NCBI GenBank assembly: GCA_963575645.1
Contig: OY754465.1
Span: forward strand, 4,030,001-4,094,000
Length of the DNA stretch: 64,000 bases
Reading direction: 5' to 3'
Origin: Xanthostigma xanthostigma
Taxonomy: Eukaryota; Arthropoda; Insecta; Raphidioptera; Raphidiidae
Each line of letters opens with the position of its first letter. The first letter of the stretch is position 1. The notes beneath the pieces are model-generated. The model ran no database searches, was not told where the DNA came from, and saw only the letters and a list, made by a program, of their open reading frames with translations. Shown here one piece after another: positions 11,301 to 63,358 of this stretch. The position numbers were made by a program, and so were the translations under genes.

Positions 11301-11380
11301 GTTAACAATTCTGTAGACAACGTCTACAGTGGCCAAAGGATCCAGAAAAACACAATTACAGATATTAAATTTGCATTTAT

Positions 11381-11418
11381 TGACTAACGTTTCGAAGGAT
11401 TTACCTTCATCCTTAGAG
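11381..11418 (-). ncRNA. Hammerhead-like stem-loop 1
   Basis: On the minus strand: CUAA, then GGAU, a hairpin GAAGG-UAAAU-CCUUC, then GAAACG and UUAG. The outer CUAA/UUAG stem and the inner 5 bp stem are both perfect. The left strand matches the hammerhead core CUGANGA poorly, so this copy is the weakest of the set in the core. Confidence 0.35.
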
Positions 11419-11459
11419 TACAAATGCCGTCAAATATGTAATGTTGTCAAAAAATAAAA

Positions 11460-12395: not shown

Positions 12396-12921
12396 AAGGC
12401 AGTGACAGCTGCACATCGCAAAAAAAAATGTAAATTATATATTTGCTTGCGTTTATTACGTATTGATAACGAATCAAGAATCTATCTATCTATACGATCA
12501 GTATTAAAAGAATTACATTATGTACTTCAAAAATTCACAATGTCAAATATTTTAAGTTCTACTTTAAACATCGTTATTTTGATACTGATACTATTTCAAC
12601 AAATAATTTACTTATATAGATTGCGTATTCTTTGTGTTTTCTTTTTTAACCGACTTCAACAAAAAGGAGGAGGTTCTATGTTCGTCTGTATATATTTTTT
12701 TTTTATGTATGTTCACCGATTTCTCTGTCAATTATGAACCGATTTTCAAATTTTTTTTTTATTCGAAAGAGCGCACCTCAGAGGTGGTCCCATCGGAACC
12801 AAGTTAGGATCTGATGGTGGAATCCGGAGAAATCGAGGGAAACTCTCAAATTTCAAAGTCACACATAATGTTTTTTATGTATGTTCACCGATTTTTAGTG
12901 TTAGATTAACACTAAAAAGAG
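12396..12921. repeat. Dispersed insect repeat fragment (GACTTCAACAAAAAGGAGGA family)
   Basis: Contains AACCGACTTCAACAAAAAGG followed by AGGTTCTATGTTCGTCTGTA and two ATGTATGTTCACCGATTT words, an arrangement common in insect repeats. It passes directly into the foldback at 12922. Confidence 0.5.
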
Positions 12922-13132
12922 AAAAATAAAATATTTTTAACAAAAAAATTGAACCGACTTCACACTAAAAAGTAAAAAATAATTCCGTATTGAAATGTTT
13001 TGGAGTCGGTATAGTTCTCGGAATAGATTTCATTTTGGCTGACACCGACTCCAAAACATTTCAATACGGAATTATTTTTTACTTTTTAGTGTGAAGTCGG
13101 TTCAATTTTTTTGTTAAAAATATTTCATTTTT
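12922..13132. repeat. Long foldback, 89-bp arms, one mismatch
   Basis: Arms 12922-13010 and 13044-13132 pair over 89 bp with one mismatch around a 33 bp loop. The arm holds TTGAACCGACTTCAC, then ACTAAAAAGTAAAAAATAA, then CCGTATTGAAATGTTTTGG. The same ACTAAAAAGTAAAAAATAA core occurs in the foldback at 34286-34512, whose outer and inner arm sequences differ. Confidence 0.9.
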
Positions 13133-13849
13133 AACTTTGTTAATTTCAATTGCTTATTTGCAATTTGATCTTTCTTTCATATTTATCATTACGCATTCAA
13201 CATTACATTACGATGAAGAACATTTTAACATTTTAGAATGTCATATTTTATATGAAGCTTTATAAACTAAAGCTCTGTTTTAATTTGACACGACTCTATG
13301 AACTTAAAAGATCATATTCTTGATAGTTAAAATTTCGTTTTACTAATATAAATCCACCTATCCATCATGATAACAATCTGTATCAACTCATGACGTTTGT
13401 TGTTTCCTTTTTTTTCAGTTTTACACATAATATACTTACTAAAAATTAGTTGAACCCATTATTTACGGGTATCAAACATATTCGAAAAAAAAATAACATA
13501 ATATTGACATAACAATTATTATTATTCATTATTTAAATACAATTATTCAGCTTTGTTTATCGAAATTGTATCAACATGTACACAAAAAAAAAGATTTAAT
13601 TATTCATATTTTATTTCAAAATAATTTATAAACGCATTCCACCGCATTTATTTTGTTTTGTTCACTGATTATATTATAAAATAGATTTGCGTATATTCAG
13701 TTGTATAAATTATTATATATTGGTAGTAGGTACATAACGATTTACGAAAAACGAGACTGCTCTTCATTTGAAATAAATTTTTTGAAGAAATGAGGAAGTT
13801 GAAGAGGAAATACTGGCACTATAACTGTATAAATAATTTTTATTGTTAG
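13133..13849. other. Uncharacterised AT-rich stretch
   Basis: No gene or repeat partner recognised. Confidence 0.3.
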
Positions 13850-18157: not shown

Positions 18158-18890
18158 CTATACTAATATATAAAGCTGAAGAGTTTTGTTTGTTTGTTTG
18201 GTTGAACGCGCTAATCTCAGAAACTACTGGTTAGAATTGAATTTTTTTTTGTTGGATAGCCCATTTATCGTGGAAGGCTATAGGCTATATAATATCACGC
18301 TACGACCAATTGGAGCGGAACATCAATGAAAAATGTTGCAAGATGTATCTCAAAATTTGTCCGTCCGACAAATATTATCAGGTGAAATGTCTTAACTAAA
18401 TATGGCAATATTAGCGCATTGCGTTTAGAATCCCGGATAGCTCAGTCGGTAGAGCATAAGACTCTTAATGCCAGGGTCTTGGGTTCAAGCCCCACGTCGG
18501 CGAATATATTTTTATTTTTTTATTTTCTAAATTGCTTTCTTTTAAGGTTTACATTTCAATTTTTTTAAATTTTATTACGACTAATTAAAATTAAATAAAT
18601 CTAATTAACAGCTCATTTGAAAACTGTTACAACTATAGGTACCTATATAAAAATAATTTTCCTACAGTGTTTTCAATTATAAATATTTATTATATAAAAA
18701 AAATATTACTTAAAAAAAGTAGAAATATGTACTGCTTTTTAACGACAAAAACTTTTGAACGGCAACTCCGATCATTATGAAGTTTGGGCACAACATTCAT
18801 CTCGGTAAACTAAGATGAATGTGCGTACTCATGTCTCTTCCTTCCCCATTCGTTCTTTTGCACCCGGGTGAAACCGGGCGGGACCGGTAG
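18158..18890 (+). mobile_element. Non-autonomous Helitron-like element carrying a tRNA-Lys-like module, copy 1
   Basis: Begins CTATACTAATATATAAAGC and ends with a hairpin (CCCGG-GTGAAA-CCGGG) followed by GCGGGACCGGTAG, the layout of Helitron 3' ends (hairpin, then CTRR). Relative to the 338 bp copy at 22093-22430 it holds an extra block of about 390 bp with a tRNA-like sequence. The block is flanked by CGACAAA on both sides. Inference: a tRNA-derived SINE inserted into a Helitron and was then spread with it. Confidence 0.75.
18431..18503 (+). tRNA. tRNA-Lys(CTT)-like sequence inside a Helitron
   Basis: Contains GGATAGCTCAGTCGGTAGAG (A box), the loop ACTCTTAAT (anticodon CTT) and GGGTTCAAGCCCC (B box). 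The anticodon stem is damaged by ATGCCAGG after the loop and the acceptor stem pairs poorly, so a working tRNA is unlikely. Confidence 0.6.
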
Positions 18891-19344
18891 TATATTATAT
18901 AAAATGTATCTATGCAGACATGAGTACGATGATGACTGATGTGACAGGTCAGCCATGAATCTTAATCGGACACGCAGCATCTAACTGTCAACCAGTAGCT
19001 CTTCATGTCTGGAGATGTGTGTTTTTAAATTACGATTTATAATATAATAACACTCCAACTTGACTGCGTAATATGTCATTGACTTCGTATTCATTTCTAT
19101 TTTATATCTAGACAAGTCTCCTATATATTATCTATTTGCATTGTCCACATACTATAGTAGCAAAAGTCCAAAATGTCTTCCAAAAAATCCTTTTTCTTTG
19201 AATGCAAGCCTCTGTAATTATCATAGCAAGAAGAAGAAAATATTTTGAAAGATTTAAATATTTTTTTCTTAAAAAAGTGAAATATATAATCTACAAAAAT
19301 GTTTCTTACGGACATCACAAGATCATCGCTTCTACCATATCATA
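18891..19344. other. Uncharacterised stretch
   Basis: No gene. A 65-residue minus-strand frame is Lys/Phe-rich from AT-rich DNA. Confidence 0.3.
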
Positions 19345-19520
19345 AACCATCTTGGTTTTCGGACTTGTAGACTTGGCATTTCTACTTTGACGTTTCGTCT
19401 ACAACTGCGGTAGACATTATCAAAGGCGATGTGGCAAACGCCTTTGATAATGCCCACCGCTGTTGTAGACCAAACTAGGTAGAAATGCAATGAAAGCCCG
19501 GAAACCAAGAAGATTTGAAA
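19345..19520. repeat. Near-palindromic Penelope-like repeat copy with hammerhead-like motif
   Basis: Two inverted half-copies face each other around GGCAAACGCC: GATAATGTCTACCGC...GTAGACGAAACGTC on the minus strand and a similar GATAATGCCCACCGC...GTAGACC on the plus. The outer parts share GGTTTTCGGACTTG / CCCGGAAACCAAG. The same words follow the Penelope-like frame at 35.0-35.1 kb. Confidence 0.65.
19384..19427 (-). ncRNA. Hammerhead-like stem-loop 2
   Basis: Minus strand: UUGAUAAU, hairpin GUCUAC-CGCAGUU-GUAGAC (6 bp, perfect), GAA, ACGU, C, AAAG. The left strand differs from CUGANGA(U) at C3 and G8. The outer stem is weak unless shifted to UUUG/CAAA. Confidence 0.4.
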
Positions 19521-19658
19521 TAACTCCAACCTATAAAACCTACACACTTAAATATCACATTAAAATTTTCAAAACTTTTTTACACCGAGTTTCTTCCTAT
19601 CTTAATATATGTCCAATGAATTTTAGAAGTTACCACAAAACACCAAACAGCTTATTCC

Positions 19659-19708
19659 ATCTCGAAATACGTTTCGTTAGCCATGTTAGCATCATCAGGA
19701 GTTGAGAT
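19659..19708 (-). ncRNA. Hammerhead-like stem-loop 3
   Basis: Minus strand: an outer AUCUC/GAGAU stem, then CUGAUGAU (perfect hammerhead core strand plus U), GCUAACAUGGCUAAC, GAA, ACGU, A. The core strands are perfect, but the inner hairpin has decayed: both arms read GCUAAC rather than being complementary. Confidence 0.4.
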
Positions 19709-21238: not shown

Positions 21239-21573
21239 TTTTTTTGCTTGTATCTTGTCAAAATTCAATATTGTAACCATGGAAAAGTTCTTACTTAACT
21301 AAGTTTGTCTTTTTACTGGCCTATAATAATAACAAATCAGTAATTAAACATTATACCTCTTTCAATAAAAATTTGTCTTGAACCAAAATTTTCATGTAAT
21401 CATTGGGCAAGTGATTATAATTTTATACATAACAACAATACTGAGAAAACAGACAGCATTGGTAAGTTTATTTATTTTACTTCCAATTTTTAACTTTAAT
21501 TTTAACAATAACTTTAACAATAACAACTGTAACAACAATAATTTAAAACTTTTTATATATAAATCTTCTAGAT

Positions 21574-21610
21574 TCTCCGAAGATGGCATAAAGTTTGCCG
21601 AAACGTCAGA
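21574..21610 (+). ncRNA. Hammerhead-like stem-loop 4
   Basis: UCU, CCGAAGAU, hairpin GGCA-UAAAGUU-UGCC, GAA, ACGU, C, AGA. It has one core mismatch (U4 to C); position 7 is variable in hammerheads. The UCU/AGA outer stem is 3 bp. CAATAAAATGCAATAAATAAA follows (poly-A-signal-like words), suggesting a retroelement 3' region. Confidence 0.5.
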
Positions 21611-22092
21611 CAATAAAATGCAATAAATAAACCTTCAGTATTTGCTTAGTTCATCGATCCTATGCCACCAGGATTCATCCTTTAATCTTACAACAAGTTA
21701 TTAAAGTCAGAATTTGTATAAATATTTTTTTATGAAGCAATTTAGGAGACCACAATTTGGTCGTATTATTTTCTAAAATTCGTCTCTTGAATGCCATTTC
21801 TTTTAAAATAATTGAATGGTAAAATTTAATAGACTAAAGCCAGTCCTGTGCTGCAGCCAGACATCGTGTGATGTCGTCCATCATGTCAATCAGACTGCAT
21901 TACGACTGCAAGTGTAAGGCGGATCATCTACACTACAGTTTAGAATTGTAACGATGAAAATACCTACACTGTGGCTCAAAAATAGAGACGAGATAATTAA
22001 TTGACATACAATTCAATTTGGATCGGCTGACTATATTGTGTACTGTGTAGGAAAAGAGTTCAAAAGTGAAATAAATTTATAATTATATTAAA
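21611..22092. other. Uncharacterised stretch
   Basis: After the motif the DNA holds no recognised repeat or gene. Confidence 0.3.
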
Positions 22093-26844: not shown

Positions 26845-27167
26845 GTTAGTAGAAGTTTTGTTCCAAAATATTGTATGTTAATTTTAAATTTAAAAAATTT
26901 GTCGAAATTCATAATAAATGATCATGTATACTAGAATTATTTTTACAATTTACCATCTTAACTTGCATTGAGGTATGTTATAGTTTTAGTATTATCTATC
27001 TATAATGTTTATAATGTAAGTTAAAAATTATAATAATATATGTAACGAATATTATACATGTTCATAGGCCCTGATGATGAAAATATATTTTTCGAAACGT
27101 TGGCCACAAGCGATACACTGGTAAAGCTTATTTTCAATTGTTCCTCAACCAAATAAATCTCCTTCAA
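26845..27167 (+). mobile_element. Retroelement family H with 14-bp target duplication and hammerhead-like motif
   Basis: TCTAGAATTTAATT flanks the insertion at 26831-26844 and 27168-27181. The first bases, GTTAGTAGAAGTTTTGTTCC, are an inverted copy of the family's 3' end. The rest runs forward to AAATAAATCTCCTTCAA. Long, variable target duplications and inverted partial copies are known for Penelope-like elements. The hammerhead-like motif is at 27067-27105. No reading frame of its own. Confidence 0.75.
27067..27105 (+). ncRNA. Hammerhead-like stem-loop 5 (best copy)
   Basis: GGCC, CUGAUGA, U, hairpin GAAAA-UAUAU-UUUUC, GAA, ACGU, U, GGCC. The core strands CUGAUGA and GAAA are perfect, the outer stem GGCC/GGCC is perfect, and a GUU cleavage triplet sits directly before the 3' outer strand. 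Helix III would be only the self-complementary ACGU, so activity would need two molecules. The extra U before helix II departs from the standard core. Confidence 0.55.
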
Positions 27168-27770
27168 TCTAGAATTTAATTTTGTTTTATTTTTGCGGAT
27201 GTTATATTTTGTTTTATAATTTTATATTTTAATAATGAATTTTTTTTATTTATTTCAATAAATTATTTATATCAATTTCGTTATGTATATATTTTATTAT
27301 CCCTGAATTGCCTATTGTTGAAAGGGACCCAGTATAATTTATAAAACTTATGGGGAAATTTTTTTTAACTAAAGGTATTACCCATTTTAATAAAGATTTG
27401 TGATCACTAATGTAAAATATGTACTTTATATACTTATAACTTAGTCGTACCTTTCAATAATGCATCATTACATGCATTTTTTAGGTGTAATGTTATACTA
27501 ATACATAATAATATTGTGCATGGGCTGTTTTAGCACCGAACGATATTTTACCTGTGATCACTGTTCGCTGAAATCAATATATTAACATCTCTGCTCTGCA
27601 CGTGCATAGTCATTCAAGTGATCGGCGAACGCTGGTCGCTTATATATTATCTGCACTGCATGCGCATAAGTTACCAGCGATCACGGGTCGCAGTTAAAAA
27701 TCACAGGTATTTGGAAGTCGCAGTCGCCAAAGTACCTGTTACTTGAAAGTAGCTAATAATCGCATCTCTA

Positions 27771-33411: not shown

Positions 33412-33877
33412 CAGGGCTGCCAGATGAACGGATTTTTCCGTACCAAACGGATTTTTCGAGTAAAAATAAATTTGAACGGATAATGGAACGGATTTCATGA
33501 TCTGAACGGATTTAACGGATTTTCTAACTTTTCCGAATTTTTTACCTTTTTTACTACATATAAATTCAAACTTCACTCGATAATCGATAATTTGGGGACA
33601 TTCGGGTATTTTTAGCACATTCGAGCATATCTGAGCACGTTTATTTCACTACCTCTGTCCTACTCCTCTCTCTATTTGGGTAGAAAAAGATAAGAGAGTG
33701 TATGAAACAATGTGTTCGCGAAACACACACCTATATCGATGAATATCGACTCGCTATCTTTGTCTGATGCGTTTTTATACGCTTTATATTAGTTTGGGTT
33801 GTAAATATGTATGTATGTATGTAACTAACTCCGTAACGGAATCTTTGAGCATAATTTTCACCAATTTCCCGAAGTCT

Positions 33878-34271
33878 GATTAATTTGAAACTTTGCATAC
33901 GTATCAAGGACCGATGACAATGCAATAATTTGATAACAGTTTCCCATTATCCTTATTAGGACCCCCAGGATTAATAAATTCTTTTATAGATCCTCTGTAG
34001 TAAACGCTTTATTTTCACCAATTTCCCGAAGTCTGATTAATTTGAAACTTTGCATACGTATCAAGGACCGATGACAATGCAATAATTTGATAACAGTTTC
34101 CCATTATCCTTATTAGGACCCCCAGGATTAATAAATTCTTTTATAGATCCTCAGATTAATTTGAAACTTTGCATACGTATCAAGGACCGATGACAATGCA
34201 ATAATTTGATAACAGTTTCCCATTATCCTTATTAGGACCCCCAGGATTAATAAATTCTTTTATAGATCCTC
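33878..34271 (+). repeat. Three-copy direct repeat
   Basis: GATTAATTTGAAACTTTGC begins at 33878, 34035 and 34154; each unit runs through AGGACCGATGACAATGCAAT to TTTTATAGATCCTC. Spacing is unequal (157 and 119 bp) because the first spacer has an extra segment. Confidence 0.85.
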
Positions 34272-34285
34272 AAACTAAAAAGTGA

Positions 34286-34512
34286 AAAATAAAATATAGT
34301 TTAAAAAAAACTAAAAAACACGCTTTATATCGCACTAAAAAGTAAAAAATAATTGTTTTAAAATAAGCTTAAAAAGCGTGGGGCGCTTTGTTCCACATTT
34401 TCGTACATCGAGCGCCCAACGCTTTTTAAGCTTATTTTAAAACAATTATTTTTTACTTTTTAGTGCGATATAAAGCGTGTTTTTTAGTTTTTTTTAAACT
34501 ATATTTTATTTT
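34286..34512. repeat. Long foldback, 102-bp arms, one mismatch
   Basis: Arms 34286-34387 and 34411-34512 pair with one mismatch around a 23 bp loop. The arms contain ACTAAAAAGTAAAAAATAA, as in the foldback at 12922-13132, but the flanking arm sequence (CACGCTTTATATCGC and GTTTTAAAATAAGC) differs. Confidence 0.9.
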
Positions 34513-34983: not shown

Positions 34984-35152
34984 CAGCCTAGAAGGACACT
35001 TCGCCCGCTACCACATCGCCTGTGATAATGTCTACCGCAGTTGCAGACGAAACGTCAGGCAAAAATACCAATGGACCACGGCATACAAGCCCGGAAACCA
35101 AGAAGATTTGTATCGCTACTATCTCAGAAAACGAATTCATTCCGAGAAATAA
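34984..35152 (+). pseudogene. Penelope-like ORF tail, resumed after the hAT insertion
   Basis: In the same frame as 33200-33411: SSLEGHFARYHIACDNVYRS, then a basic stretch and a stop at 35150. The nucleotide sequence includes the hammerhead-like motif at 35028-35060, so the frame reads through it. The continuing frame may be fortuitous past the motif. Shared words (CCCGGAAACCAAGAAGATTT) occur at 19490-19520. Confidence 0.55.
35028..35060 (+). ncRNA. Hammerhead-like stem-loop 6, in a Penelope-like element
   Basis: GCCU, GUGAUAA, U, hairpin GUCUAC-CGCAGUU-GCAGAC, GAA, ACGU, C, AGGC. The outer stem GCCU/AGGC is perfect. Core positions C3 and G8 differ from the hammerhead consensus. Confidence 0.45.
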
Positions 35153-43291: not shown

Positions 43292-44320
43292 AACCTTTTA
43301 TATCTTTTGAACGGAGTGTCCGACTGAAACGCGGTTTGCGGCATCTGACGTGATCTTGGTGAACTTAGACTTCCTGAAAATTTGAAACGATTCGGCCCAA
43401 AAAAATTTGAGAAATCTTAAAAAAACAAGTTTCAAAATTTTTTTAAAATTTGTTTTTGTAAAATATTTTCTAAACTACTAAACCGAATAATTCCAAAATC
43501 TAATCAGCTCTTCTCCTTAACAAACTGCGTCGATTTCCGCAAACCGCATCAAAATCGGTGCATTTGTTCACGAGATACCGTGAACGAAAAAATCGTAAGA
43601 AAGTGTTTTTTTAAAATGATTCTTAAAATTGTTATCAGATCGATTTTTTTGTAATAAATTACTTTCTTAGGCTAAAAAAACTGCGTCGATCGCCGCAAAC
43701 CAGATCAAAATTGGTTCATTTGTTCATGAGATAACGTGAACGAAAAATTAGGAGAAAAGTAATTTTTTATAATTACTCGTAAAATTCTTATCAAATCGAT
43801 TTTTTTGTAATAATTTACTTTCTTAGGGTAAAAAAACTGCGTCGATCGCCGCAAACCAGATCAAAATTGGTTCATTTGTTCATGAGATAACGTGAACGAA
43901 AAATTAGGAAAAAAGTAATTTTTTATAATTACCCGTAAAATTCTTATCAAATCGATTTTTTTGTAATAATTTACTTTCTTAGGTTAAAAAAACTGCGTCG
44001 ATCGACGCAAACCGCATCAAAATCGGCTCATTTGTTCACGAGATATCGTGAACGAAAAATTTGTAAAAAAGTGTTTTTTTTAAATTGCTCGTAAAATTCC
44101 TATGAGATCGATTTTTCTGTAATAAATTACTTTTTTAGGATAAAAAATTGAATCGACTGCCGCAAATCGCATCAAAATCGGTTCATTTGTTCATGAGATA
44201 TAGTGAACGAAAATTTCGTAACAAAGTGTTTTTTTTTTGAGCTCGAAGAGCTAAAAAATAAACTTCTTGCTATATTTTATATATTTTTGAACGTTTCGAA
44301 CTCGAAAATAGCGGGAAGTT
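43077..44320. mobile_element. Element with AACTTCCCGC ends and internal 156-bp array
   Basis: Begins AACTTCCCGCTTT and ends AGCGGGAAGTT. Near the left is GATTTTCGAAAATCGAGTTT followed by ATCTCGACGTTTTGAGGTCC, words typical of a widespread insect repeat. It contains a (GT)n tract at about 43246-43282 and a five-unit tandem array. Confidence 0.75.
43525..44240 (+). repeat. Five tandem units of 155-156 bp
   Basis: CTGCGTCGATNNNCGCAAAC (or close variant) starts at 43525, 43681, 43837, 43993 and 44148. Each unit also contains TCGATTTTT(T/C)(T/C)GTAATAA and TTTGTTCA(C/T)GAGATA. The period is constant to one base while units differ in sequence, as in an old array. Confidence 0.9.
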
Positions 44321-44527: not shown

Positions 44528-44600
44528 GCCCGGCTGGCTCAGTGGGTAGAGTATGCGACTGTTAATATTAGGGTCGTGGGTTCGAGTCCCACGTTGGGCT
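44528..44600 (+). tRNA. tRNA-like sequence with Asn (GTT) loop, Helitron copy 3
   Basis: GCCCGGCTGGCTCAGTGGGT (A box), loop GACTGTTAATA (anticodon GTT) and GGGTTCGAGTCCC (B box). The acceptor stem GCCCGGC/GTTGGGC pairs with two G-U wobbles, better than the CTT copies. The anticodon stem is still imperfect (TGCGA / TATTA). Probably a SINE-type module. Confidence 0.6.
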
Positions 44601-49090: not shown

Positions 49091-49456
49091 TTAACATGAA
49101 CACTACTTCCTAGTTCATACGCTCCGCTGCCATCTTGCCTCTGTTTCTTCACACTACCACCAAAGTATACCAGTGACGGCGTGGCTTTTTTAAAACGTGG
49201 TGTTACAAATTAATTAAGGTACCTATGTTTCATTTACAAATATTCACAAATTAATTATATAATCACAATTAATATTCAGCGTAAGTAATTCAATACACAA
49301 TTATTCTCATTTAGCAGTACCTACATTGCTGCCAACGTAATTAAATAGGTATGTTTAAGTTATTTATTTTCATGACTTTGATCGATAATAATATCACAGT
49401 GGGACGGACAGAAATTAAGATCGCAATATCTTATTAATAGCTTCATTTTAATGGTA
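49091..49456. other. Uncharacterised AT-rich stretch
   Basis: No gene or repeat partner recognised. Confidence 0.3.
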
Positions 49457-49487
49457 AACATTTCGATGATTATCGCATCATCGTCAG
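49457..49487 (-). ncRNA. Hammerhead-like stem-loop 7
   Basis: Minus strand: CUGACGA (perfect core with C at the free position 7), U, hairpin GAUG-CGAUAAU-CAUC, GAA, AUGU, U. The usual ACGU is AUGU here and no outer stem is evident. Confidence 0.35.
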
Positions 49488-49500
49488 CGCTTGTGTTAAA

Positions 49501-53545: not shown

Positions 53546-53635
53546 TTATTGTCATTTCCAAAACATTATAGTTAACGAAGGAGATTTATTTGATTGAGGA
53601 ACAATAGAAATAAGCTTTACCAAAGTATCGCTTGT

Positions 53636-53674
53636 GGCCAACGTTTCGAAAAATATATTTTTATCCTCAGGGCC
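53636..53674 (-). ncRNA. Hammerhead-like stem-loop 8
   Basis: Minus strand: GGCC, CUGAGGA, U, A-U-rich hairpin (AAAAAUAUAUUUUU), C, GAA, ACGU, U, GGCC. Core strands are perfect (position 7 = G). Confidence 0.5.
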
Positions 53675-54579
53675 TATGAACATGTATAGTATTCAATTAC
53701 TTTAATATTCCCAGATAGACAAGTATGAGACTCATGGGTATGATGAAAATGAATTATCCAAATTTTACAGAATATTGAACGTATTTTATTTGACGAAATT
53801 AGTATATGAGAGATTTAGATCAAATTGACATCATCAGAAAAGTGTAATGTAAGCACCGAAAATGTAGAAAAGTATTGAATGAATAGTGTGTCAACAATGT
53901 GACAATTTTTTGGGTCATTTAATTGAGACAACATTCATAATTGAATTTGAAGCATTTATGATACATCTGATGATGGAAAAATGCAGCTAATTGTGAATGC
54001 ATTCGATGCATAGTTTTTGTAAACATAATGTGACATTCGCATGAACTAAGTTGATTAGATCAACATTGATGGTTTTGATTGCAGCAACTTTGATACATCT
54101 CATGACGACAATATGTTACTAATATTAGATACATAAAATATATTATATTTTGCATCCAATGTGTGACATTCCGTGTATTCATTTAATGTAAACAATGGTG
54201 TCGACTCCATTCATGATTATAAATTCAATACAAAAATATACCACTACTATTTTCTCTTACTCTTATCTTATTTTGACCAATTAAAATGCATCCCCTACCA
54301 AGAAATAAAATTTTTCTAAGAATTTCGACCAAGAAAATATATTTGAGCGTCAGTTTGCTGTAAGCTTTAACGAGTTTTGCTGTCCAGAGCTCTATCGTGG
54401 TGCGAGTTATTATATAATAATTATAATTATGTATGTATAAGAACGTTCGTGTGATTACACCAGATGACCAGTGAATTTAAGCAAGACATTATAAATTAAA
54501 AATGCGGACCAAATTGTCTAAAAAAAGGAAATTTTTGGGGACAAAAATGATGAAAGTATTCATGAGTAAGTATGGCTTC

Positions 54580-55158: not shown

Positions 55159-55814
55159 GTTATGCTCACAATATGAAGCAAATATGAGTCAACGATATTC
55201 ATCACAGAAATAAGCAAATTTGAAGTAATTTTCAATCTTTCTAACACCGTCATAGAATGTACATAATATGAAGCAAATATGAGTCAACGATATTCATCAT
55301 AGGAATAAGTATATTTTGTAGGAATGTTGAATCTTTCAAATATTATCATGATCTACTGTTAATATGAAGACAACTTTTAGTTGAAGATTATTAGTATCCA
55401 TTTGATTCAATATTTATACAATATATACTCAACGAATTCTGTCATGATTTTCATTCACTATGAGCTCACACAGGCACTCATAATAGGTCCATGGTGAGTT
55501 CATTTCATGTATCAAAAATGATCTAAATTTGCAGTAAATTTGCTGTAAACCTGTCTATCTGGGTTATTATGATTTTAAAATTACAAATAAATGCATTACA
55601 AATCAGATAAACCAAACATTATGACATTATACCTCAATGCAAGTTGAGATGGTAAATTGTGCAGATTATTCTAGTATAAATCTGCACAATTTACCATCTC
55701 AATTCTTGCATTGAGGTATGTTATAATGTTTGGTTTATGTGATTTGTAAGGCATTTATTTGTAATTTAGAAATCATAATAATATTAATTTAATTGAATAC
55801 TATACATGTTCATA

Positions 55815-55853
55815 GGCCTTGAGGATGAAAATATAATTTTCGAAACGTTGGCC
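55815..55853 (+). ncRNA. Hammerhead-like stem-loop 9
   Basis: GGCC, UUGAGGA, U, hairpin GAAAA-UAUAA-UUUUC, GAA, ACGU, U, GGCC. One core change (C3 to U). The downstream sequence ACAAGCGATACTTTGGTAAA is shared with copies 5 and 8. Confidence 0.5.
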
Positions 55854-55935
55854 ACAAGCGATACTTTGGTAAAGCTTATTTCTAATCTCCTTCAATACAT
55901 ATTTTGGAACAAAACTTCTACTAATTATAGTTAAC

Positions 55936-56332
55936 CATGCACACGGGAGGGTTTTAATGTCAATTATGTTATCCTTCATTCACTCTGCGACGCACTGTAT
56001 GTACAGAAACGGTAATGTTTATTCTGTGCATGTATTAAATAGACGTATGCAATTGTGTGTATCTATTGTTAATTAACATTACGTTGACAACTAAGGTTAT
56101 TCAAATCTGATTAGAAAACATACAGGAATTGTAAGATTCGAAAGGATATAGTAGGCAGATTACACCCACGCATTATTATTGAAGCCGGCTTAAAGCAACG
56201 TGACCACCATTTTTTATGCAGTGCTCGGAAAATGATTTGACACGTGAGGGTTAGTAAAGAAAATTATGAACACAAAATATTTAAATCATATTATTTTAAA
56301 AAAAGAATAACTAAGATAATAATAAATTCCTT
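55936..56332. other. Uncharacterised stretch
   Basis: No gene or repeat partner recognised. Confidence 0.3.
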
Positions 56333-56760
56333 TAAGAGTATTCGTCCCTGCAAATACCCCCTGCACCCTTCATCTCAAATCTTTTCCCCTCGCCTAAAAA
56401 CGGTTCGCGCTCTCCCGACACTATTTTTAAAGCTAGAGGGTTCTGGTAAACGCCAAATGAAAGACAAAGAAACAGACTACAGATCCTTCAGGCGAATTTT
56501 TTGAAAAAAAATTCCTGAAAAAACTTACAACCTTTTGAAAAAAATAATAAGTTACGTAATATTTCACACGTAGGCGAAACTGTTTTTCAAAAAATTCGCC
56601 TGAACGATCTGTAGTCTGATTCTTTGTCTTTCATTTGGCGTTTACCAGAACCTTCTAGCTTTAAAAATAGCGTCGGGAGAGCGCGAACCGTTTTTAGGCG
56701 AGGGGAAAAGATTTGAGATGAAGGGTGCAGGGGGTATTTGCAGGAACGAATACTCTTAAC
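56333..56760. repeat. Foldback with about 178-bp arms
   Basis: 56333-56510 and 56583-56760 are inverted copies: AGAGTATTCGTCCCTGCAAA, CTTTTCCCCTCGCCTAAAAA and CTTCAGGCGAATTTTTTGAA. Two nearly identical translated frames from the arms are artefacts of this. Confidence 0.9.
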
Positions 56761-62704: not shown

Positions 62705-63358
62705 TGTTACACGCTCCCCGTTGCGACGACAACAATCGACTCGTCATTCTAACAAAGCCAGACATTGTTGTCTAACAACAATCGGCTCGTCATTCTGACA
62801 ATGATACACAGATTGTTGTGGGGAAACAACAATCGACTTGATGTTCCTACAATATGCGTAGGTAGAAAGGGCTTTGTTGCCAAATTCCAGAACATTCTGG
62901 AAAGCCTACCCGGCGCCTATAAATACAACGAGCTCGGTGAGTCTAGCTAGTCAGTCAGTGTAACAGTACGTACAGTGGGTTACAAAACATAAATTGTTCA
63001 GTCGGTACAATAGTACCGAGGTAACTGTGTAAATAAATGCTAGTGCAGTGTGGTTAATAAAACATTGACTGAAGTTATATAAATCTGGTTTAACATAAAT
63101 AATTTCTTGCAAATAGTCGTGTGTATATAGTTAATAGACAAGTGTGTAAATAAACTTTGGTGTGTTCCTGCATTGTAAATATTTTGTGTACATAATTAGT
63201 GACTTTATATTCTTCGTTAATTATTCTTTTATTTTATTAGTCAGAATTTTTCTGTTACGTTAAAGAAGTACTTTCGTTTTGGTGTTTAACTGTTTTGTTA
63301 AACGTTTATTATTGTAAATAAAATAGTTTCTACCACATACTAGAACAGTTTTGTTACA
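62705..63358 (+). mobile_element. Solo LTR with 4-bp target duplication
   Basis: Begins TGTTACACGCTCCCC and ends AGAACAGTTTTGTTACA, flanked by ATAT on both sides (62701-62704, 63359-63362). The 654 bp unit has repeated CAACAATCGG words, a heat-shock element, a TATA box, an initiator and several AATAAA words downstream. No primer-binding site follows, so it is a solo LTR. A 4 bp duplication fits a Ty3/gypsy- or BEL-type element. A diverged relative lies at 1873-2205. Confidence 0.8.
62885..62956 (+). promoter_or_regulatory. Heat-shock-type core promoter in the LTR
   Basis: TTCCAGAACATTCTGGAA (62885-62902) is a perfect four-unit heat-shock element: TTC-GAA-TTC-GAA at 5 bp steps. TATAAATA is at 62918-62925 and TCAGTCAGT, an arthropod initiator, is at 62951 with its A at 62953, about 35 bases from the TATA start. 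Known biology: HSF binds such arrays. Inference: this LTR is heat-inducible. Confidence 0.75.

Follow-up and report, generated by a model that had tools for sequence, protein, structure and literature searches.

The DNA analysed here, referred to as the window, is a 64-kb stretch of the Xanthostigma xanthostigma genome. It is AT-rich and laden with repeats, and its longest ORF does not exceed 215 aa; these properties fit the expectation for an animal genome. SINE-like repeat copies with tRNA-like starts were found at 18433, 38134 and 44528 on the plus strand, among which only 44528-44600 passed the Rfam tRNA cut-off. Near-perfect, MITE-like hairpins are located at 56332-56759, 12916-13138 and 34286-34512 (arms of 182, 95 and 102 nt, 96-99% complementary), the first two with microRNA model matches below the cut-off. 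Tandem arrays occupy 33854-34272 (157/119-nt units, copies 100% identical) and 43522-44235 (156-nt units). The sequence TCTGGAATTTGGCAACA is common to about 62868-62898 and about 2124-2146, both on the minus strand; at the former site it is preceded by AGAATGT, giving AGAANNTTCNNGAA, which we take to be heat-shock-element-like.

Nine motifs resembling the hammerhead ribozyme are also located in the window (Table 1). All of them, as claimed in an earlier note on this DNA, were found at their positions, four on the plus strand and five on the minus strand. A tenth, decayed copy was not listed in that note.

Table 1. Hammerhead-like motifs of the window (coordinates are those of the window)
Motif	Family	Coordinates	Strand	Features
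27067	A	27066..27106	+	GGCC/GGCC stem I, CUGAUGA, extra U, 5-bp stem II, GAA, ACGU, U17
55815	A	55814..55854	+	same repeat as 27067, C3U
53636	A	53635..53675	-	intact core; A-C mismatch at the stem II closing pair
21574		21572..21612	+	UCU/AGA stem I, CCGAAGA (U4C), extra U, GGCA/UGCC stem II, GAAACGUC
11381		11381..11421	-	ACU/AGU stem I, CUAAGGA (G5A), extra U, GAAGG/CCUUC stem II, GAAACGUU
49457		49452..49492	-	CUGACGA, extra U, GAUG/CAUC stem II, GAAAUGUU; no adjacent 3-bp stem I
19659		19663..19703	-	CUGAUGA, extra U, GAAACGUA; no helix II
35028	B	35017..35115	+	PLE ORF start overlapping a degenerate hammerhead (GUGAUAAUG...GACGAAACGUCAGGC); C3G and G8A
19384	B	19330..19428	-	UUGAUAAUG, 6-bp stem II, GAAACGUC; C3U and G8A; frame closed by a stop
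Tenth, unlisted copy	B	19439..19535	+	decayed; CAAACU where GAAACGUC is expected

The layout that the earlier note described for all nine motifs holds throughout for the single extra U 5' of helix II and for the GAA of the 3' core strand (9/9 each), and in part for the remaining elements. The self-complementary ACGU of helix III is present in eight motifs, with AUGU in 49457. An adjacent stem I of at least 3 bp was observed in six (3-4 bp); the other three (19384, 19659 and 49457) have a shorter or displaced stem, or none. In 19659 an outer AUCUC/GAGAU pairing, offset by an internal loop, was recognized by eye as possible. In seven motifs stem II counts 4 bp or more and its closing pair is intact, the exceptions being 53636 and 19659. 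An H17 is found at the putative cut site of every motif (U in five, C in three and A in one). The sequence CGAAACGT occurs 10 times in the window, against 1.2 occurrences expected from base composition; eight of these are within the listed motifs and two outside (1649 and 44298), and in 49457 it is replaced by CGAAATGT.

The earlier note had also stated that the core is kept while the stems differ between families. The 3' strand agrees with this and the stems do covary (see below); however, the claim was overstated for the 5' strand, as CUGANGA is intact in only four motifs (27067, 53636, 49457 and 19659), and the other five each carry one or two changes at the fixed core positions C3, U4, G5 or G8. 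Every part is intact in 27067 alone, including the two core strands, the GGCC/GGCC stem and the GU-U17 site described before. In 21572-21620 and in 11373-11421 (minus strand), the 3' strand of stem I runs nearly directly into CAATAAA, which resembles a poly(A) signal, and TGCAA follows in both; the motifs 21574 and 11381 may be distant relatives.

The window was scanned with a descriptor that tolerated up to two mismatches to the CUGANGA core and required 4 bp or more in helix II as well as GAAA[C/T]GU; 300 dinucleotide shuffles served as the control. Seven sites were found in the window, against a shuffle mean of 0.33 and a maximum of 3; with at most one mismatch the numbers were 5 and 0.017, and with none 2 and 0.003. 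All seven sites contain a one-base insertion before stem II, though zero was also permitted. The descriptor missed 53636, because its closing pair is broken, and 19659, which is devoid of stem II. An origin by chance, or as hairpins of low complexity in this AT-rich DNA, would agree with the often AU-rich stems, with the imperfection of eight of the nine copies, and with the one match that a relaxed scan (U required, one non-pair tolerated) gave in the reversed window against six in the window itself. This explanation is contradicted by the seven sites found against 0.33 in the shuffles, and also by the fixed 17-nt spacing and the recovery of 35028 from a held-out search (see below); we give it next to no credence.

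Seven of the motifs align without gaps across 41 columns. In stems I and II of this alignment 71% of the cells are paired, against 55% after shuffling, and 12 changes affect both sides of a pair, against 3.4 in the shuffles (0 of 500 as high). The covariation score of 0.495 exceeded that of all 500 shuffles, and six slid registers reached at most 0.290; the number of further pair types was unremarkable (163 of 500 shuffles as high). Stem II is paired in 86% of its cells, with changes on both sides in four of five pairs, and stem I in 57%. The covariation is supportive and not independent, since the structure was partly read from the same sequences and three rows are from one family. A better test is the recovery of held-out copies. 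The covariance model R1, built from the seven motifs, gave 35028 as the best untrained match (E 0.004; the next was 0.34); the motif 19384 reached only E 6.8.

The hammerhead models of Rfam gave no match across the window, whether the gathering score or a limit of E 10 was applied, and none in 27000-27180 with laxer filters. The best sub-threshold Rfam match at 27067 was the snoRNA model snoZ161_228 (E 0.23), as might be expected of a C/D-box snoRNA-like RNA with the UGAUGA as C box inside a short terminal stem. Its score of 19.3 bits is far under the gathering cut-off of 45, and no D box was seen by eye before the 3' GGCC, and the stem arms are only 31 nt apart; the match was rejected, and a snoRNA-like origin is barely conceivable. 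Three pattern scans of viral contigs gave at least 120 stretches, 1 and 8, respectively. The matches listed from the first scan, window included, comprise 123 motif matches in 121 sequences, and among these matches listed 27067 is the one whose two stems pair best (5 and 4 bp). In the viral sequences, two matches with a stem II of 7 and 6 bp but a 1-bp stem I, and another (L001) with stems of 4 and 3 bp, were informally taken for chance. The viral contig with the single match of the second scan is packed with long ORFs, and inspection of the eight matches of the third by eye revealed no Penelope-like element (PLE).

Minimal type I hammerheads of PLEs have been in print since Cervera & De la Pena 2014, and excerpts of a later article describe thousands of them in many metazoan genomes, mostly dispersed and some in PLE terminal repeats (PMC7761336). 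These PLE hammerheads have no helix III and may cleave as dimers (excerpts of PMC6155905, PMC6466107, PMC7229834 and PMC6431247); dimer cleavage was reported by Lunse, Weinberg & Breaker 2017 (via PMC6466107). The window motifs resemble them in the nearly absent helix III and the dispersed copies, and the dimer proposed in the earlier note agrees with this literature. They most likely belong to this already published kind. The hammerhead reading is supported by the architecture, the enrichment and the match to published motifs. Judged from their sequences, the motifs are very probably minimal type I hammerheads of several PLE families, left in the genome as short insertion ends. We are similarly confident of the predicted minimal type I layout, with stem I outside, stem II as the hairpin, and helix III reduced to ACGU.

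The PAc RNA from the Poseidon PLE of Anolis carolinensis has the form CUGAGG-AUG-...-GGGC-GAAACGUC-AGG (PMC11167929). According to the excerpts of this article, its cleavage was seen only with added protein; C3G or G8C abolished the cleavage, and the double mutant partially restored it. The window motifs share with PAc the layout, the extra U, the ACGU helix III and the H17 site. The earlier note correctly placed the extra U in every copy and took it as an objection to a hammerhead; the objection is removed, since the PAc RNA carries the same U and cleaves with protein. The extra U is therefore compatible with a working hammerhead, and is common to the window motifs and a biochemically studied PLE. 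The plus-strand hammerhead of the viroid CChMVd has an extra A positioned before helix II. This natural extra core nucleotide (excerpts of PMC3705267) is a further likeness to the window motifs, which differ in that theirs is a U and not in a viroid. A literature search for CGAAACGTC or CGAAACG returned no PLE title among the matches listed.

Within family B, 35028 closely resembles PAc in sequence. The AUG at 35028, which is formed by A9-U-G10.1 as in PAc, opens MSTAVADETSGKNTNG, alongside MPAIDVGETSGENASG in PAc. Like PAc (CUGAGGA, U, stem II, CGAA, ACGU, C17 and a short stem I), both 35028 and 19384 have 21 nt from A9 to G12; unlike PAc, family B has A8 in place of G8 and lacks C3. When the core was set aside, 46 of 85 letters of 35028 were identical to PAc, the top value of 127,794 window positions (the next was 40); the corresponding 36 of 85 for 19384 is reached by 34 window positions. 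The in-frame pattern ETSG.N..G is common to 35028 and PAc (5 of 5000 shuffles as high); the protein similarity beyond ETSG, taken by itself, was not significant (770 of 5000).

The 60-nt downstream tails were also compared with PAc by gapped local alignment, using 5000 background pieces, and this gave weaker evidence. Only the tail of 35028 stands out (14 pieces as high); that of 11381 is marginal (114) and that of 19384 weaker (308), with 886 for family A and 3340 or more for the remaining motifs. A match to the PAc tail at 62950 (minus strand) scores 39 against 24 for 35028, and four further matches in the window score 26-32; all of these are out of register and have no ribozyme, and were rejected. 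The sequence comparisons show homology of 35028 with a PLE terminal repeat or ORF start. At 81% identity to 35028 over 99 columns, 19384 is assigned to the same family.

A8 replaces G8 in all three family B copies, two of which keep stem II and GAAACGUC. Position 3 is U in 19384 and, judged by eye, in the third copy as well; by sequence, a U3-A8 pair could substitute for C3-G8 in both. The motif 19384 and the tenth copy lie head to head, and form a hairpin with 37-nt arms (19392-19428 and 19439-19475), 89% complementary, around a 10-nt loop. These inverted partial PLE-like ends at 19392-19475 may reflect the PLE insertion process. A Pfam search for reverse-transcriptase and GIY-YIG domains found none in nine same-strand frames from three regions with 35028, 19384, 19659 and 27067, and none in ten ORFs; the only Pfam matches listed were below threshold. 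Short insertion ends need not contain the reverse transcriptase and GIY-YIG ORF. We infer from their architecture that the seven other motifs (family A, 21574, 11381, 49457 and 19659) derive from PLEs, and that the window copies are insertion ends. The earlier note missed that the motifs are a known kind in a known class of retroelements, that one family overlaps a PLE ORF start, and that five cores are altered.

Comparison of the three family A copies (27067, 55815 and 53636) showed that 4 of 39 ribozyme columns are variable, against 6 of 52 flanking columns. The upstream flank varies in 1 of the 19 nearest columns and in 4 of 24 overall; the downstream flank in 2 of 25 and in 2 of 28. The ribozyme decays like its surroundings within this family, which suggests that the individual copies are relics; the conservation between families might therefore reflect selection on the parent elements. 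The earlier note had named random decay of the core relative to neighbouring bases as evidence against a ribozyme. Within family A the ribozyme is indeed no better kept than its flanks, so that part of this contrary evidence is present here. Most of the window copies are probably dead insertion ends.

The seven non-coding motifs differ from PAc in having 17 nt, and not 21, from A9 to G12, and in their short closed frames, which end within 2 to 20 codons although the AUG at A9-U-G10.1 is kept in six of the seven. These differences from the coding motifs and PAc, together with the absence of a PAc-like tail in family A, could indicate that only family B is a PLE, and that family A, 21574, 11381, 49457 and 19659 are non-autonomous, retrozyme- or SINE-like repeats with a borrowed ribozyme, moved by PLEs or LINEs. 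Metazoan non-LTR retrozymes with type I hammerheads have been published (excerpts of PMC7229834), and the window motifs are like them in being type I hammerheads in repeats of an animal genome. However, those retrozymes are described as short units in tandem whose hammerheads are canonical; the window copies are scattered and have a minimal helix III, and no overlap was seen between the nine motifs and the 19 tandem-repeat rows of the window. The extra U and the ACGU are also the same as in PAc. Such a mixed origin is possible, though we consider it somewhat unlikely, and descent of all the families from PLEs is preferred.

The role of the ribozyme in PLEs is still called unknown in the excerpts of PMC7761336. 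In a living element, RNA transcribed through adjacent copies would form stems I and II, and helix III would gain the stability that it lacks from two ACGU strands or from the protein of the element itself. The RNA would be cut after H17 into ends with 2',3'-cyclic phosphate and 5'-OH; the retroelement RNA would thereby be trimmed. When the seven 41-nt pieces were folded alone, stem II was predicted in register in three, stem I in four and both in two (27067 and 21574), where core bases were also paired. The predicted homodimers of these pieces gain 3.2 to 9.8 kcal/mol, and no clean double hammerhead was seen by eye. That the monomers are not predicted in the active fold fits a need for a dimer or a protein, and is no proof of it. 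One or another of the window copies might be able to cleave.

The motifs might instead have been conserved as a structure at the PLE end that binds protein or starts reverse transcription, with RNA cutting incidental. According to the excerpts of PMC11167929, catalytic mutants of PAc had no effect on insertion in vitro, RNA-seq ends were absent at the PAc cut site, and the cleavage was protein-dependent; the A8 of family B, with stem II and GAAACGUC kept in two of three copies, would also agree. However, hammerhead letters (A6, G8, A9, the extra U, GAAA and GU) account for most of the invariant positions in the seven aligned motifs, and the stems change together. We regard a purely structural role as improbable, and conservation as a hammerhead is preferred.

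In family B, as in PAc of Anolis, A9-U-G10.1 forms the AUG that opens the PLE ORF, and the 'extra' U is thus part of the start codon. The extra U might accordingly mark a hammerhead subclass, extending from this animal to lizards, whose core doubles as a retroelement start codon; this proposal is tentative and more doubtful than not. If it held, a cut 26 nt downstream would separate the AUG from its ORF, and the RNA would be either a message or a processed template, which is an equally speculative step. It is no more than a tentative suggestion, too, that the non-coding families with 17 nt, six of whose seven members keep the AUG, descend from such an overlap. A literature search for an overlap of hammerhead and start codon in Penelope pointed solely to PMC8490949, as represented by its excerpts.

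The silence of the Rfam hammerhead models on the window copies suggests that model-based counts of PLE ribozymes in animals may be too low. Should the U be linked to the start codon, this would offer a simple way to test whether cutting by the ribozyme competes with translation in PLEs.
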